The translations under genes were made by a program, and so were the position numbers. Positions 157 to 11,290 of a DNA stretch of 13,307 nt are shown here, one piece after another. This DNA comes from Holophagaceae bacterium (lineage in GTDB: Bacteria > Acidobacteriota > Holophagae > Holophagales > Holophagaceae), in assembly GCA_025355915.1 (NCBI GenBank), contig JANXYT010000377.1, positions 1 through 13,307 on the forward strand. Direction: 5' to 3'. Positions within the stretch are counted from its first letter, which is position 1, and each line of letters starts with the position of its first letter. The notes beneath the pieces were generated by a model. The model was not told the DNA's origin. It worked only from the letters and a program-made list of their open reading frames with translations, and searched no databases.

Positions 157-1123
157 TCCTCAGCTCCAGCGGCGGCAGCCCCATGTCCCGCAGCGTGGCT
201 TCGGCCGCCTCGCGCTGCCCGTCTTTCACCACCAGCAGGCAGCAGCCTCCGCCGCCCGCGCCGCAGGGCTTCATGCCGGCGTACCAGCCCTCGCGACGGC
301 CACGGTCGCGCACGGCCCGCATGGCGTCGGTCTCCACGGCGGGGGACATCCGCACCCGGGACCGGCCCTCCCGCTCCAGCAGGTCCGCCACTGCCGCCGG
401 ATCGGAAGGCAGCGCCAGGGCCATGTCCCGGGCGATTTCTCGAATATCGGACAGCGATTGTCGCGTCTGCGTGTCGCCCTCAATGAAGCGCTTGTAGGCC
501 TCCCAGTTCGTCAGGCCGGAGTGATGGGGCTTCCCGGTGTAGAACACCACCAGATCGGCCAACAGGCCGTGGTGGGGTTCGAGTTGTTCCCAGCGCGGGG
601 CGGCACCGTCCCAGTGGAGGGCCAGGGCCCCCCCCAGCGCCGCCGGATAGTAGTCCTGCCAGCCCGTGGGCGTTTGAAGCTCCCTACTTTCCAAGTCACG
701 TAGCATCGGTACTTTGGATGCAAGACCTTCACCGGCTTCCACACCCAGCGCCAGGCCCAGGAGTCCCACCCCCAGACAGGAGGAGACCCCCAGTCCCGAT
801 CCCTGGGGCACGGGGCTATGGATGACCACGGAGGCGGGCGGCACGCCCGAGGCGTCCAGGACCCGCCATACCCAGGAGAGGTCCCGGGGCGGTTCCGTGG
901 GCCAGGTCCGGAAGGAGAGATCCAAACCGAGGTCGCGGCTGGTGATCCTGTGGCCGGGTCGAGTCCGGGACACCTCGATCTCGATCCACAAATCCACGGC
1001 AGCGTTCACGGTGAGGCAGCCGCCCATCATGGCGTAGATGGGCCATAAATCCAGCGTCCCTCCCGCGAAATCAATGCGGACGGGGACGCGCCAGGTTTCC
1101 GAAGTCACGGTGGACCGGTTCAA
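128..1123 (-). CDS. GHMP-family sugar kinase (heptose-7-phosphate kinase / galactokinase-like)
   Basis: The 331-aa protein has the three GHMP kinase motifs in order. Motif 1 is PVRIDFAGGTLDLWP (residues 13-28). Motif 2 is the ATP-binding glycine-rich loop PVPQGSGLGVSS (about 104-115). Motif 3 is MKPCGAGGGGC (about 284-294). GWQDYYPAALGG (154-165) matches the GxQDxxxAAxGG segment of HddA-like heptose kinases, with D157 the likely catalytic base. Phosphorylation of a sugar or sugar phosphate in the cytoplasm, perhaps for cell-surface glycans, is therefore likely; the substrate is not readable. The start used is TTG at 1121-1123, overlapping the cpoB stop as TTGA and so probably translationally coupled. 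A GTG at 1106-1108 (codon 6) is an alternative and still precedes motif 1. Stop is TGA. Confidence 0.85.
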   Translation of the reverse strand: MNRSTVTSETWRVPVRIDFAGGTLDLWPIYAMMGGCLTVNAAVDLWIEIEVSRTRPGHRITSRDLGLDLSFRTWPTEPPRDLSWVWRVLDASGVPPASVVIHSPVPQGSGLGVSSCLGVGLLGLALGVEAGEGLASKVPMLRDLESRELQTPTGWQDYYPAALGGALALHWDGAAPRWEQLEPHHGLLADLVVFYTGKPHHSGLTNWEAYKRFIEGDTQTRQSLSDIREIARDMALALPSDPAAVADLLEREGRSRVRMSPAVETDAMRAVRDRGRREGWYAGMKPCGAGGGGCCLLVVKDGQREAAEATLRDMGLPPLELRITPKGLHKL

Positions 1124-1836
1124 AGGCCCAGGTCACTCAGTTCCTGCTGGGCCGTGCGGGCCTCGGCGCTGCCGGAGAACCCGTCCACCAGCTCGCGGAA
1201 GGCTTTCACGGCGGCAGGCTTGAGCCCCTGCTTGAGAAAACACTGGGCGCGCTTGAGCTTGGCGGGCAGGAACTGGGGGGAGGCCGCGTGGTCCTTGATG
1301 ATCCGGTCGAAGGTGGCCTGGGCTTTGTCGAAGGCGCGCTGGTTGTAGTGGCAGAGCCCGAGGAAGAAGAGGGCCTCGGCTCGCTTCGTGGTCTGGGGGT
1401 AGGTCTTCAGGAAGAGGTCAAGGCCCTCGGCCGCGAGTGGGTAGTTCCCTCGGTTGTAATCCAGCACGGCCGCGTTGAAGGCCCGTTCATCCTCGGCGGA
1501 GACGGCAGCAGAAGGCTGGGGGTCGGCGACCGGCCGGCTGCCGCCCCGGGACTGGCTGTTGAGGCGGTTGTTCAGCACCCGGGTGGTGTCCTGCACCTGC
1601 CGCAGGCTCTCCTGAAGATCCGCCTGGAAGCGGCGGTCCTGGCCGCGAGCCTCGGCCGAAGCCTGCTGGTCCGACTGCGCCCGTTTGTTGCCTTCCTCCA
1701 CCGACTGGCGGAGCTTGAAGACCTCCAGCTTGAGATCTCCCACTTCCTGCTCCACCCGGCGAAGCTGGTCTTCGGAGTTGCAGCCAATGGCGAGCAGCGC
1801 GGCCAGGACGGGAAGCATCATCGTGCGAGTGCTCAT
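1120..1836 (-). CDS. cpoB: CpoB/YbgF-type Tol-Pal coordinator lipoprotein (coiled coil + TPR)
   Basis: The 238-aa product begins with a short hydrophobic signal ending in lipobox LLAIGC, so C19 is the probable lipidation site. N20 follows, not Asp, so outer-membrane sorting is expected under the Lol +2 rule known from enterics. Residues about 20-100 form a charged heptad-like coiled coil, as in YbgF. After a Pro/Ser/Ala linker, about residues 115-235 are tetratricopeptide repeats (FNAAVLDYNRGNYPLAAEGL, AEALFFLGLCHYNQRAFDKA, then a third). In E. coli CpoB links Tol-Pal to septal peptidoglycan synthesis. It follows pal on the same strand after a 75-nt gap holding a terminator-like hairpin. The ATG has a good AGGAG site (1842-1846, 5-nt spacing). 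The E. coli protein is usually periplasmic and not lipidated, so the lipobox is a lineage difference. Confidence 0.88.
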   Translation of the reverse strand: MSTRTMMLPVLAALLAIGCNSEDQLRRVEQEVGDLKLEVFKLRQSVEEGNKRAQSDQQASAEARGQDRRFQADLQESLRQVQDTTRVLNNRLNSQSRGGSRPVADPQPSAAVSAEDERAFNAAVLDYNRGNYPLAAEGLDLFLKTYPQTTKRAEALFFLGLCHYNQRAFDKAQATFDRIIKDHAASPQFLPAKLKRAQCFLKQGLKPAAVKAFRELVDGFSGSAEARTAQQELSDLGL

Positions 1837-1911: not shown

Positions 1912-2643
1912 CTACTTGAGCTTGAACTCGCCGCGGCGGTTCTGGCTCCAGCAGGATTCCTTCGCCTCGGTGCAGAGGGGCTTCTCCTTGCCATAGCTGA
2001 TGGTGGTGAAGCGGGCCTCATCCACACCCAGGGTCTTGAGGTAGGCCAGGGCAGCTGCGGTGCGCTGGTTGCCAAGGGCCAGGTTGTACTCGTTGGTACC
2101 GCGCTCATCGCAGTGGCCTTCGATCTCGAGTTTGCCCGCGGGGAAGGCCTTCATGAAATCGGCGATGCCCTAAAGAATGGCGCGGTCCTTCTCCTTGATC
2201 TCAGCCTTGTCGTAATCGAAGTGGATGGTCTGGAGGGCTGCCTCGGCAGCCTTCTTGAAGGCAGCGGCCTTCTCGGCATCGGCAGTGGCCTTGCGAGCAG
2301 CTTCCTCGGCGGCGATCCGGTCAGCGGCGGCCTTCGCATCGGCGGCGGCCTTGTCGGCAGCGGCCTTCTCGGCAGCAGCCTGATCGGCAGCGGCCTGGTC
2401 AGCCTTGGCCTTGTCCCAACCGTCGTTCCAGCCCTGGATCTTGTGGGGGATTGACTTGGCATCCTTGGCGGTCACATAGGGATTGGTCTCACGGGCTTTC
2501 CCATCCTTGAACGCCTGGTAGCCCTCGTTGAAGGCAGCCTGAGTTTCAGCCTTGATCTCCTCAGCGGTCTTGGGCGGCTTGCAGGCCAGACTGCCAAGGG
2601 TGAGCACGATGGCTGCGGGGACGAGGTAGATTCCGTATCGCAT
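1912..2643 (-). pseudogene. pal: Pal peptidoglycan-associated lipoprotein, interrupted by in-frame TAG at codon 158
   Basis: Read through the internal TAG this is a 243-codon Pal. The signal peptide ends in lipobox LGSLAC (C21). Residues 38-82 hold a GYQA...NPY...GW..GW pattern resembling ribosome modulation factor. Residues about 82-130 are an Ala/Lys/Glu-rich helical linker. The OmpA-like peptidoglycan-binding domain starts at IHFDYDKAEI (about 139-148) and contains the Pal signature GHCDERGTNEYNLALG after the stop. TAG (2170-2172) sits between DRAIL and GIADFMK, where many Pal proteins have Gln, so one C-to-T change from CAG would explain it. Frame and signature are intact on both sides, so any decay is very recent, or the base is a sequencing error, or the codon is suppressed. 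The normal stop is also TAG (1912-1914). A GGAGGA site (2652-2657) precedes the ATG. Pal anchors the outer membrane to peptidoglycan and binds TolB. Confidence 0.88.
2170..2172 (-). other. In-frame amber codon inside pal
   Basis: The minus-strand codons read GCC ATT CTT TAG GGC ATC GCC. The segment upstream ends at codon 157 and the segment downstream continues in the same frame to 1912. The next in-frame ATG (codon 164, 2152-2154) would restart a product without signal peptide, lipidation site or first strand of the OmpA domain, so reinitiation would not give a working Pal. Confidence 0.9.
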
Positions 2644-2709: not shown

Positions 2710-3990
2710 TCAGCGCCCGCGAATCCACCGGGGGCTCTGGCAACCCCCAAGCTCCGTCAGCCGAACGATCTGGCGACCCGAGAGGTCGGTGGTGAAGATC
2801 TGAGACGAACCGAAGCGATTGCTGGTGAAGACCAGCCGGCGCTCATCAGGGGACCAGGCGGGCGATTCAGAAGTGCTCACACCAGTGGTGATCTGGTAGG
2901 CCTTTCCTTCCCCCAGCTTGTAGACAAAAAGATCGAACTTGCCCTCGAACCGGGACACGTAGGCCACCGTGGCACCGTTGGGACTCCAGGAGGGGCTGGC
3001 GTTGTAGGACCCTTCACCGGTCAGGCGGCGGAGGTTCGAGCCGTCATCCTGCATGAGGAACACCTGGGGGCCACCTTCGCGGTCCGACGTGAACGCAAGC
3101 TGGTTGCCGTTCGGGTTCCAGCTCGGCTCGGTATTGATGCCGTTGCCGTCCGTCAACCGCCGGGCCCGGCCCGCAGCAAGGTCCAGCATCATGATGTCGC
3201 TATTGCCACGGCGGTCGCCCTGCACGAAGGCCAGGCGCTTGCCATCCGGCGACCAGACCGGCGAGGACACCAGGCCGCCTCCACCGCTAGCGGGATACAA
3301 CTTCTCGTGGGGTCCGTCCTTGTGACGCTGACCCCAGATTTCCGGGGAGCCTCCCTTGTAGGTGACGTAGGCCAATCGGCCGTCGGCTGCCACCGTCGGC
3401 GAGAGGGTCAGGCTGCCGTGCCGGGTGAGTTGCAGGAGCCCCGCCCCGTCGCGATCCAGCTGGAAAATCTCCTTCACGCCCGGGGAGACCTGGCGCACGA
3501 ACACGATGCGGCTGGAAGCCACTCCCTTTTCGCCGGTCAGGCGGCCGATCAGATCGTCGGCGAGGTAGTGGGCGAGGTAGCGGAGCGGCACGATCCTGTT
3601 GGCATTGTAGGTGCGCGTGAACACACCTTTTTCGGCCGCAGTGTCCAGGGCGGAGGCCTCCAGCTTGAGATCGCCGTTGGCGGCCTTCGACAGCTTGGTG
3701 TTCAACAACCATTGGGCCCCGGCCTCCTTCCAGGCCGCCAGGGGCGCGGCATCAGCCGGCAACCGTTCCTGAAGCATGGCGATGACACCCGTCTCATCGA
3801 GATCCCGCTTGAGGACCGCTGTGAACTCCATGCGGACCGCAGCCTCGTCCACCCCAGTGACTTTGGGCGAGGTCATGGCCAGCACCAGCTTCGCGCTGCT
3901 GGTGGCGCTCAGCACCACCTCCGTCTGCTGGGCGAAGAGGCCAGAGGCGGCAAGGGCACAAAGAAAGGTCCGAATGAGGAATCGCGACAT
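2710..3990 (-). CDS. tolB: TolB, periplasmic beta-propeller of the Tol-Pal system
   Basis: The ATG at 3988-3990 opens a Sec signal peptide (MSRFLIRTFLCALAASGLFA, cleavage probably after residue 20). A GGAG site lies 6-7 nt before it; reading further upstream would add 25 unlikely residues encoded by a palindrome. The mature 406-aa protein has an N-terminal domain (about 25-150; VVLSATSSAKLVLAM, then LARYLAHYL-like segments) and a C-terminal six-bladed propeller of WD40-like repeats. The blades are marked by WSPDGKRLAF, WNPNGNQLAF, WSPNGATVAY and WSPDERRLVF. TolB shuttles between Pal and TolA in the periplasm during outer-membrane constriction. Length matches the family. pal follows 66 nt downstream. 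The genes for TolQ, TolR and TolA are not in the window, so the usual tolQRAB-pal-cpoB cluster is split or rearranged. Confidence 0.93.
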   Translation of the reverse strand: MSRFLIRTFLCALAASGLFAQQTEVVLSATSSAKLVLAMTSPKVTGVDEAAVRMEFTAVLKRDLDETGVIAMLQERLPADAAPLAAWKEAGAQWLLNTKLSKAANGDLKLEASALDTAAEKGVFTRTYNANRIVPLRYLAHYLADDLIGRLTGEKGVASSRIVFVRQVSPGVKEIFQLDRDGAGLLQLTRHGSLTLSPTVAADGRLAYVTYKGGSPEIWGQRHKDGPHEKLYPASGGGGLVSSPVWSPDGKRLAFVQGDRRGNSDIMMLDLAAGRARRLTDGNGINTEPSWNPNGNQLAFTSDREGGPQVFLMQDDGSNLRRLTGEGSYNASPSWSPNGATVAYVSRFEGKFDLFVYKLGEGKAYQITTGVSTSESPAWSPDERRLVFTSNRFGSSQIFTTDLSGRQIVRLTELGGCQSPRWIRGR

Positions 3991-4006
3991 GGAATCTCCG
4001 GGCCTG

Positions 4007-4058
4007 GGGTCTGTTTTCAAATTGGGAGTGAGTCGCACCCCAATTTGAAAACAAACCC
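4007..4058. repeat. Long palindromic element between the Nudix gene and tolB
   Basis: The arms TGTTTTCAAATTGGG (4012-4026) and CCCAATTTGAAAACA (4039-4053) are a perfect 15-bp inverted repeat around a 12-nt loop. After one mismatch (4011/4054) the pairing continues for 4 bp to 4007/4058. The arms are AT-rich against a GC-rich background. There is no T-tract after the hairpin on the minus strand, so it is a poor terminator. The GGGGTCTG...-type outer arm recalls dispersed REP-like palindromes mobilised by RAYT transposases in other bacteria; that comparison is from memory and unverified. It could equally be an operator or an mRNA structure upstream of tolB. Confidence 0.8.
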
Positions 4059-4076
4059 TGAACATTCTTCAGCCTA

Positions 4077-7851: not shown

Positions 7852-8553
7852 TCAGCCCAGGACGCCGTGCAACCAGCGCCGAGTGACCCACTGGATCTCG
7901 TCGTCGGTGATCTGGTACTGCGGATCTCGCAGCTTATCCTCGATGAGCGAGCCCACCAGGGACGTGAAGAGCAGCACCTCCTTGCGGGCCTGTTCCAGGC
8001 TGGTGCCGAAGACGTGGTGCACGAAGAGACCGAGGGGACTCAGTCCCTTCTCCACCAGGGGCATCAGGTCCCGGAAACTGGAATCCGGTGATGGCACGGC
8101 GATGGAACGCAGGATGAAGCCGGTGAATTCCTGGCTTTCGAGCAGCAGGCCGAGGTAGGCCCGGGAGAGCTTCAGGCAGGCCTCATCTACGGCCCGCACA
8201 CCCTCGATGGGTTTGGCGAGAAAGGGCTCAACCATGGCCTGGATGCGCACGGCCATGCTGGCCAGCGACACGAGGCAAAGCTGCCGGAAGAGGCCTTCCT
8301 TGCTGCCGAAGTGATAGTAGAGCGTGGGCTTGGAGACACCGGCCTCCTCGGCCACTTCCTTCACCTGCACCCCGTCGTAGCCTTTGGCGGCGAAGTGCGA
8401 CAGGGCCGAAAGCAGGAGGCGGGCCTTGAGGTCCCCCTCGTCACTGAGGCGCTGCAGGGACGCATGGAAGCTGCCATGGGCACCCACGCCCAGGGCCTCG
8501 GGGCCGAAGACAGGCACCATCTCTTTGAGACCATGGTCAGGAACAGTGGACAT
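7852..8553 (-). CDS. TetR/AcrR-family transcriptional regulator
   Basis: The 233-aa protein has a TetR DNA-binding domain at about residues 44-90: LLLSALSHFAAKGYDGVQVKEV, then recognition segment AGVSKPTLYYHFGSKEGLF. The remainder is the alpha-helical ligand and dimerisation domain, with no recognisable ligand signature. About 40 residues precede the domain, longer than usual, but the ATG at 8551-8553 has GAGG 8 nt upstream, so the extension is probably real; an in-frame Met at codon 12 is an alternative. It is the first gene of a unit with the M61 peptidase and the glycosyltransferase and probably regulates that unit and itself. A 16-bp imperfect palindrome about 40 nt upstream is a candidate operator. 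Confidence 0.9.
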   Translation of the reverse strand: MSTVPDHGLKEMVPVFGPEALGVGAHGSFHASLQRLSDEGDLKARLLLSALSHFAAKGYDGVQVKEVAEEAGVSKPTLYYHFGSKEGLFRQLCLVSLASMAVRIQAMVEPFLAKPIEGVRAVDEACLKLSRAYLGLLLESQEFTGFILRSIAVPSPDSSFRDLMPLVEKGLSPLGLFVHHVFGTSLEQARKEVLLFTSLVGSLIEDKLRDPQYQITDDEIQWVTRRWLHGVLG

Positions 8554-9917: not shown

Positions 9918-10616
9918 ATGTCCCACCCCCCGACTCCCTGGGCGCTCCCGCCCGATGTGCCCTGGCCGCGGTTCCTGCGGATGCTGCGGCAGGCGGATCC
10001 ACCGCGGGGCTGGCTCGAATCCGCGGCGGAGCTGCCGGACCTGAAGAAGCGGCCCCTGCTGCTGCGCTGGATCGCCCAGCACCCCAAGGCCCCGGCCCAC
10101 CTCCGCGCACGGCTGCTGGGCCGCCTGCCCTGGCGGGGCCTCGCGGCCGTGGCGGCGGATGCTGCGGCCCATCCCCAGGCTCGGCAACAGGCCACGGAGA
10201 AGCTGCAGCAGCTGTGGGTGGCTCTGACTACCGGTGAGCGCCGCAGCTTGGCCCTGCATGCGCCGCGGCCCCTGTGGGCGCTGGTCTGGCGGGCACCCGA
10301 TGGCGGTGTGCTGGCCGCCTTCCTCCTGCATCCGAAATTGGGGCTGGAAGCCCTGGTCGCCCTCATTCAACCGCCGCTCCGCCCCGCCCAGCTCGAGGCC
10401 CTGGCGGCTTCGCGCTGGCGCGAGGCCGGGCCCGTGGCGGAGCAGGTGCTGCGCGCCCTGGACCGCAGCCTCGCCCTGCCCGATTCGGGCCTGGTCCTGG
10501 GCCACGCCGCACCGTGGGTCAAGGCGCTGGACGAGGAAAGCCGACTCCTAGCCGCCAGCCGCATCGTGACGCCCACCCTCCGGCGGATGGTCCATCCGAG
10601 GCGCTTGACGGACTAG
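9918..10616 (+). CDS. Uncharacterised alpha-helical, HEAT-like protein
   Basis: The 232-aa product is not recognised. It is rich in Ala, Leu, Arg and Pro. It shows repeated helical hairpins of the kind LLLRWIAQHPKAPAHLRARL and VAADAAAHPQARQQATEKL, with His-Pro turns at about 30-40-residue intervals, which recalls HEAT or DUF2336-type repeats. There is no signal peptide, membrane segment or catalytic motif, so a cytosolic scaffold role is possible. The GC-rich third codon positions support coding. It has no Shine-Dalgarno and probably a leaderless start at 9918. The stop TAG (10614-10616) is interlocked with the elbB stop on the other strand in a CTAG. Confidence 0.75.
   Translation: MSHPPTPWALPPDVPWPRFLRMLRQADPPRGWLESAAELPDLKKRPLLLRWIAQHPKAPAHLRARLLGRLPWRGLAAVAADAAAHPQARQQATEKLQQLWVALTTGERRSLALHAPRPLWALVWRAPDGGVLAAFLLHPKLGLEALVALIQPPLRPAQLEALAASRWREAGPVAEQVLRALDRSLALPDSGLVLGHAAPWVKALDEESRLLAASRIVTPTLRRMVHPRRLTD
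10613..10616. other. Interlocked stop codons of two convergent genes
   Basis: The palindrome CTAG supplies TAG to the plus-strand gene (10614-10616) and TAG to elbB on the minus strand (10613-10615). No intergenic sequence or terminator separates the two. Confidence 0.95.
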
Positions 10617-11290
10617 ATCCGCTTCAAGACCTCAGCCACGCAGCGCTCGATGCCGACCCACACATCGCTCAGCCGTGCGTCGTCGAACATGTAGGCAGGC
10701 GTGGTGATGAGCTTGTGGGCTTCGTCGATGACGATCTCGCGGGCACTAGGGGTGCTCGTGTGGTGCTGGCCGAGCTTCTGCATGGCCGTGGCGCACCCGG
10801 TGTCATTGCCGAGGGTCAGCTCGGCAGAGCTGCGCCCCGACAGCACCAGCGCCACCAGGGCCGGGGCGATGCAGATGGCCCCCACGGGTTTCTTCGCGTC
10901 GAAAAATCCGCGCACGAAGGCCGCCACGTCAGGCCGGACGTCGGCTTCGGCGCCCTGGAAGGCGAACGAGCAGTGGTTCTTCGCCACGCCGTAGCCGCCG
11001 GGCATCACCAGCGCGTCGTAGTCCTCCACGCGGGCCTTGGCCAAGTCAAGGCACTGGCCCACCCGGGCGATGCGGGTGGCTTCTTCCAGGATGTTGCGGA
11101 CCGCGCCGGGCACGGGCTGACCCGTGGCGTGGTTGATGACATGGTGCTGGTCGGCGTTGGGGGCGATGCACTGAAAGGCCGCGCCGTGCTGGTCCAGAGC
11201 CAGCAGCGCGAGCACCGACTCCCGCACTTCCGCGCCATCGAGATGGCCGCAGCCAGCCAACAGCACCGCGACCTTCGGGGTCTTCGCCAT
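10613..11290 (-). CDS. elbB: ElbB-type DJ-1/PfpI superfamily protein (glyoxalase, isoprenoid-linked)
   Basis: The 225-aa protein aligns by eye along its length with ElbB: VAVLLAGCGHLDGAEVRESV at the start, CIAPNADQHHVINHATG, RNILEEATRIARVG, DALVMPGGYGVAKN and KPVGAICIAPALVAL. C140 in GAICIAP is the expected nucleophile elbow cysteine of the DJ-1/PfpI fold. ElbB has been tied to isoprenoid biosynthesis and shows glyoxalase activity in E. coli; the cytosolic role here is inferred from that. The ATG at 11288-11290 has a strong AGGAGG 5 nt upstream, so an in-frame Met 11 codons earlier is rejected. The stop TAG overlaps that of the convergent gene. It is divergent from the aminotransferase with 79 nt between starts. 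Confidence 0.92.
   Translation of the reverse strand: MAKTPKVAVLLAGCGHLDGAEVRESVLALLALDQHGAAFQCIAPNADQHHVINHATGQPVPGAVRNILEEATRIARVGQCLDLAKARVEDYDALVMPGGYGVAKNHCSFAFQGAEADVRPDVAAFVRGFFDAKKPVGAICIAPALVALVLSGRSSAELTLGNDTGCATAMQKLGQHHTSTPSAREIVIDEAHKLITTPAYMFDDARLSDVWVGIERCVAEVLKRI

Follow-up and report, generated by a model that had tools for sequence, protein, structure and literature searches.

An in-frame TAG at a conserved glutamine codon of pal in a draft Holophagaceae genome, best read as an isolated one-base change

The pal gene of a Holophagaceae bacterium carries a TAG at codon 158, best read as an isolated nonsense change of a single base in a glutamine codon; the gene is otherwise unremarkable. 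The gene lies in a window of 13,307 nucleotides (the whole stretch of DNA that was analysed), which constitutes an entire contig (C181) of a draft metagenome assembly comprising 506 contigs and 2,775,097 bases at 77.58% completeness. Between a base error and a real nonsense allele there is a near tie, with the error slightly favoured: at about even odds (roughly 0.5), the TAG would be an error of the consensus, or a minority base taken into it. The base itself would then be wrong, and the living population would make full-length Pal.

Translation of positions 2643-1912 yields 157 residues ending in KEKDRAIL, the TAG, and 85 further residues, from GIADFMK onward, up to a terminal stop that is itself TAG (1912-1914, minus strand). 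X158 is the sole codon of the gene read otherwise than by table 11, and neither a frameshift in pal nor a further stop in the frame downstream of codon 158 was seen. An in-frame amber codon followed by 85 codons of unshifted frame is what the preliminary description had reported, and translation and homology both bear it out; as assembled, pal does not form one uninterrupted reading frame. The 5′ piece contains a signal peptide, a lipobox-like LACK (read by eye), an RMF-like segment, a linker rich in Ala and Lys, and the initial 16 OmpA-domain residues. The GHCDERGTNEYN motif is located 3′ of the stop, in the piece in which no signal peptide was seen and whose first ATG lies at 2154, five codons beyond the stop. 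A scan of positions 1800-2800 gave no promoter-like site and one terminator-like site, against 0.9 expected.

Table 1. Coordinates of the interrupted pal gene and its neighbours in the window.
Feature	Position	Strand	Basis or remark
In-frame TAG, pal codon 158	2170..2172	-	Translation; CAG in 39/39 distinct relatives
pal, whole frame, interruption and terminal TAG included	1912..2643	-	Translation, PF00691, TIGR02802
pal 5′ piece, 157 residues	2170..2643	-	ORF list, translation, Pfam; lipobox by eye
pal 3′ piece, 85 codons, most of the OmpA domain including GHCDERGTNEYN	1912..2169	-	Homology, Pfam
tolB, upstream neighbour, uninterrupted	2710..4065	-	Mechanical ORF; true start possibly further in
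ybgF/cpoB-like gene, downstream neighbour, uninterrupted	1120..1836	-	ORF list, TIGR02795, TPR

With Pal of the Tol-Pal system the gene shares a lipobox-like N-terminus, a C-terminal OmpA-like domain, and the gene order tolB-pal-ybgF; it differs from Pal as represented by TIGR02802 and PF00691 in the in-frame TAG. With X at the stop, the OmpA model (PF00691) matches residues 142-230 at 65.5 bits (cut-off 27.2), and the 3′ piece alone scores 51.9 bits against the same cut-off, covering model positions 20-92 of 98. The Pal_lipo model (TIGR02802) gives 124.0 bits for the whole protein, again with X at codon 158, against a cut-off of 125.35, and 107.6 bits for the 3′ piece alone. Since the 85 post-stop residues are up to 95% identical to Pal of relatives and reach that OmpA score, the 3′ frame is beyond chance. 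Of the 89 OmpA-matched residues, a product that stops at residue 157 would retain 16. PMC7391070 describes binding of diaminopimelate by Pal through a conserved Asp and a conserved Arg, which are Asp71 and Arg73 in H. influenzae; judged from the motif, Asp179 and Arg181 would be their counterparts here. The upstream neighbour has TIGR02800 (TolB) as its best match at 304.6 bits, under the cut-off of 343.15, together with PD40 repeats and TolB_N (Pfam), and the downstream neighbour matches TIGR02795 best (69.3 bits, under the cut-off of 90.1) and contains TPR repeats.

A further difference from Pal is an RMF-like segment (PF04957, ribosome modulation factor) at residues 34-83 (window positions 2395-2544, minus strand), between lipobox and linker. 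It is common to the closest homologues, being present in 60 of 60 proteins scanned, i.e., the window Pal and its 59 closest homologues. By eye, it was also recognized at L100 and L085 and was absent at L088, L093, L095, L096, L097, L098, and L099. Such a segment is odd in a periplasmic lipoprotein, and a literature search on it in Pal found no paper.

The genome contains five OmpA-domain matches, pal included. A search of it with the 85 C-terminal residues of pal returned three matches, the other one among the matches listed being 30% identical. The second pal that had been thought worth looking for did not appear: there is no close one among the matches listed. Relatives G012, G013, and G034 each have a second Pal copy, 62-70% identical.

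What relatives carry at codon 158 was read at 109 loci, comprising 29 from a genome search and the 80 best of the 387 given by a second search. Identity across the 85 post-stop residues reaches 75% or more at 59 of these, which comprise 39 distinct sequences, and all have CAG; pal codon 158 is therefore one base from its relatives. Among all 89 distinct sequences CAG is the commonest codon (50), others including AAG, CAA, AAA, and GCC, and a stop occurs in none. The full-length homologues (P0122-P0243, n = 122) have Gln at this position in 121 cases and His in one; the nearest of them, P0122 (243 residues, 94% identity), carries Gln158. The stop thus stands at a sense codon of the relatives, and the proposal that the ancestral codon was CAG for Gln is confirmed. 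No truncated Pal was found elsewhere, the 120 proteins listed of the 161 matching the 157-residue piece all having at least 199 residues. The C-terminal part of Pal was detected in 58 of 59 other genomes searched, the miss being a 71%-complete genome (G027).

Constraint downstream of the stop is either present or was lost very recently, with at most slight relaxation and no clear decay. The dN/dS of the 3′ part is 0.046-0.156 between the window and relatives (15 pairs) and 0-0.069 among relatives (9 pairs, chosen by the analyst), and four replacements separate the 3′ part from P0122. At columns at least 90% conserved, the window Pal shows two deviations, as 35 of 123 proteins show two or more; for the sequence beyond the stop, two would appear ordinary.

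The wider genome was surveyed over 531,586 readable bases (100 contigs and the window, about one fifth of the genome); the survey also met 27 runs of N, totalling 66,337 bases, which resemble whole masked contigs. A codon model selected 439 gene-like ORFs, 397 of them closed by a stop. A scan for internal stops gave 24 candidates, of which pal and an Asp-box-type gene were tested by homology and the other 22 were read by eye as the start of the next gene; an earlier scan with 167 candidates was dropped, most of them being antisense frames. The Asp-box-type gene (contig C4, L179) contains a TGA at 2116-2118, between KSTNGGSS and SASIQLG. Homologous loci numbered 10, distributed over 9 of the 36 other genomes, and every one of them has Trp at this position; the codon was read in four of them and is TGG in all four. 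The pal TAG and this TGA are both consistent with single G:C-to-A:T changes. On contig C402 (L275), a TAA at 8310-8312 lies near the start of a response regulator whose receiver domain scores low (49.4 bits); degenerate by eye, this gene is probably a real pseudogene. In-frame stops of all three kinds are therefore present in the assembly. A domain survey of the genome found a stop inside none of 47 ABC_tran matches and inside one of 52 Response_reg matches. If the two clean stops in the 157,935 surveyed codons are both errors, a nonsense fraction of 0.0279 translates them into about 1.5e-4 errors per base, a substitution error rate that is possible in a low-quality draft.

A relative, G015, was examined in parallel. 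A codon model trained on it alone was discarded, the CAG/TGG counts indicating convergence on antisense frames. With the G000 model, 800 kb of G015 (6 contigs) yielded 31 candidates; by eye, none was a clear interruption and one was ambiguous (L300, minus strand, offset 10187). When G015 ORFs were compared with the contigs of the present genome (63 retained matches, partly shadow frames), the pal codon was the sole stop flanked on either side by identity of 80% or more. The window had no match in a plasmid collection, and a search of the literature for premature or nonsense stop codons in assembled metagenomes found nothing, from which no conclusion was drawn.

The preliminary description had raised three explanations; a base error and a recent nonsense mutation are both still viable, and there is evidence against amber suppression. 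A base error agrees with CAG in the relatives, Gln in nearly all homologues, an intact frame, and a second clean single-codon interruption, the TGA of C4, within the surveyed bases. It is slightly favoured because the C-terminus of Pal is so nearly universal among the genomes searched, the 3′ part is nearly intact, and the quality of the assembly is low. Ordinary pseudogenes could also account for two interruptions in 439 gene-like ORFs, and the C402 pseudogene, the replacements relative to P0122, and the raised 3′ dN/dS speak slightly against an error.

Nearly as probable is that the sampled strain truly carries a nonsense mutation of recent origin. Translation would end after 157 residues; the resulting lipoprotein may still be anchored, lacking 73 of the 89 OmpA-matched residues and, by comparison, the peptidoglycan contacts that Asp and Arg within the motif GHCDERGT would make, and the sampled strain would be a Pal mutant. 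The one-base distance from the relatives' CAG suits such an allele as well as it suits an error, and further interrupted genes occur in the genome (C4, C402). Loss is also conceivable since Tol-Pal genes are dispensable in some species: in PMC7391070, the system is described as not essential in E. coli K-12 and as essential in Caulobacter and Pseudomonas aeruginosa. The raised 3′ dN/dS and the four replacements lean slightly to a real and older nonsense allele. Against this stand the retention of the Pal C-terminus in other genomes, the lack of a stop at this codon in any of the distinct sequences, the open frames of the neighbouring tolB and ybgF, and the fact that no frameshift or later stop has followed. 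With nonsense alleles and point pseudogenes pal shares its one-base distance from the relatives' Gln codon and an otherwise intact frame; it differs in showing little decay and in having a base known from the assembly alone.

Amber suppression or programmed read-through, in which a suppressor tRNA would insert a residue, perhaps Gln, at codon 158 and so give full-length Pal, is very improbable. The gene shares a stop inside a conserved protein with the cases of stop-codon reassignment and suppression named in PMC8629427 among the kinds screened for, and an intact frame on both sides with a still largely constrained 3′ part is what suppression would lead one to expect. In contrast to those kinds, however, the present case consists of one TAG in one gene of a genome in which TAG is a common stop, release factor 1 is present, and a CTA tRNA was not found. 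The 397 closed gene-like ORFs end in TGA (226), TAG (120, pal codon 158 counted), or TAA (51), so that TAG still ends genes and is the second commonest gene end in the surveyed fifth; a general suppressor would extend most of the 120. The gene for release factor 1 (prfA) is present, scoring 488.2 bits (cut-off 423.25) without an internal stop. These results uphold the preliminary lean against general recoding, which had pointed to TAG as the stop of pal (1912-1914), of elbB (10613-10615, minus strand), and at 10614 (the end of the ORF 9918-10616, plus strand); all three do end in TAG. The stops of elbB and of the plus-strand ORF, for which no Pfam match was found, overlap at 10613-10616. Moreover, the commonest terminal codon of pal among the 39 distinct close relatives is TAG (24 of them), an amber suppressor could not read the TGA of the second clean interruption, and the codon-158 stop is not conserved, unlike a programmed site.

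The tRNA complement points the same way. The suppressor tRNA whose presence had been considered was not recovered: no CTA anticodon occurs at the 30 tRNA loci over the cut-off, an absence that is not proven in a genome 77.58% complete. Two near-complete relatives show 45 and 47 such matches, so some tRNAs must be unassembled here, and with about 22% of the genome missing a suppressor could be among them. The most obvious one-step source of a suppressor is tRNA-Gln(CTG), which was initially absent from the tRNA listing and was found via a relative's locus: contig C166 starts inside it, and its 42 overlapping bases equal those of the relative, CTG anticodon included, although this fragment is possibly not the sole copy. 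That an unassembled amber-suppressor tRNA exists in the population, so that TAG at codon 158 is tolerated and Pal is made partly by suppression, is accordingly given very little credence. An ARAGORN prediction in the window ('tRNA-???', 11180-11266) lies inside elbB, has an unreadable anticodon, and was taken as a false positive. Elsewhere in the genome (L330, contig C272), a tRNA-Glu(CTC)-like piece near an integrase-looking frame forms an arrangement that by eye resembles the attachment site of a mobile element.

Least probable of all is a split gene, in which re-initiation at the ATG at 2154 would yield an 80-residue OmpA fragment beside the 157-residue lipoprotein: the ATG is suitably close to the stop and two proteins of other lineages (P0004 and P0005, 80 and 81 residues) begin at the same Met, but the fragment, without a visible signal peptide, would remain cytoplasmic, and P0004 and P0005 are each known from one sequence on one contig (1,425 and 5,291 bases, respectively) and could be explained by a frameshift, a stop, or the end of the contig upstream. 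P0004 and P0005 may themselves come from other pal genes that are interrupted or misassembled.

The case serves as a caution: when a draft metagenome assembly shows one clean in-frame stop within a conserved gene, recoding does not follow from it, and in one fifth of the present assembly a further gene was found to be interrupted, by another stop codon. Were suppression at work, its efficiency would determine the level of an envelope-anchor protein. Should the base prove real, the sampled strain would represent a Geothrix-like bacterium with a natural Pal mutation, suited to asking whether this phylum can dispense with Tol-Pal.
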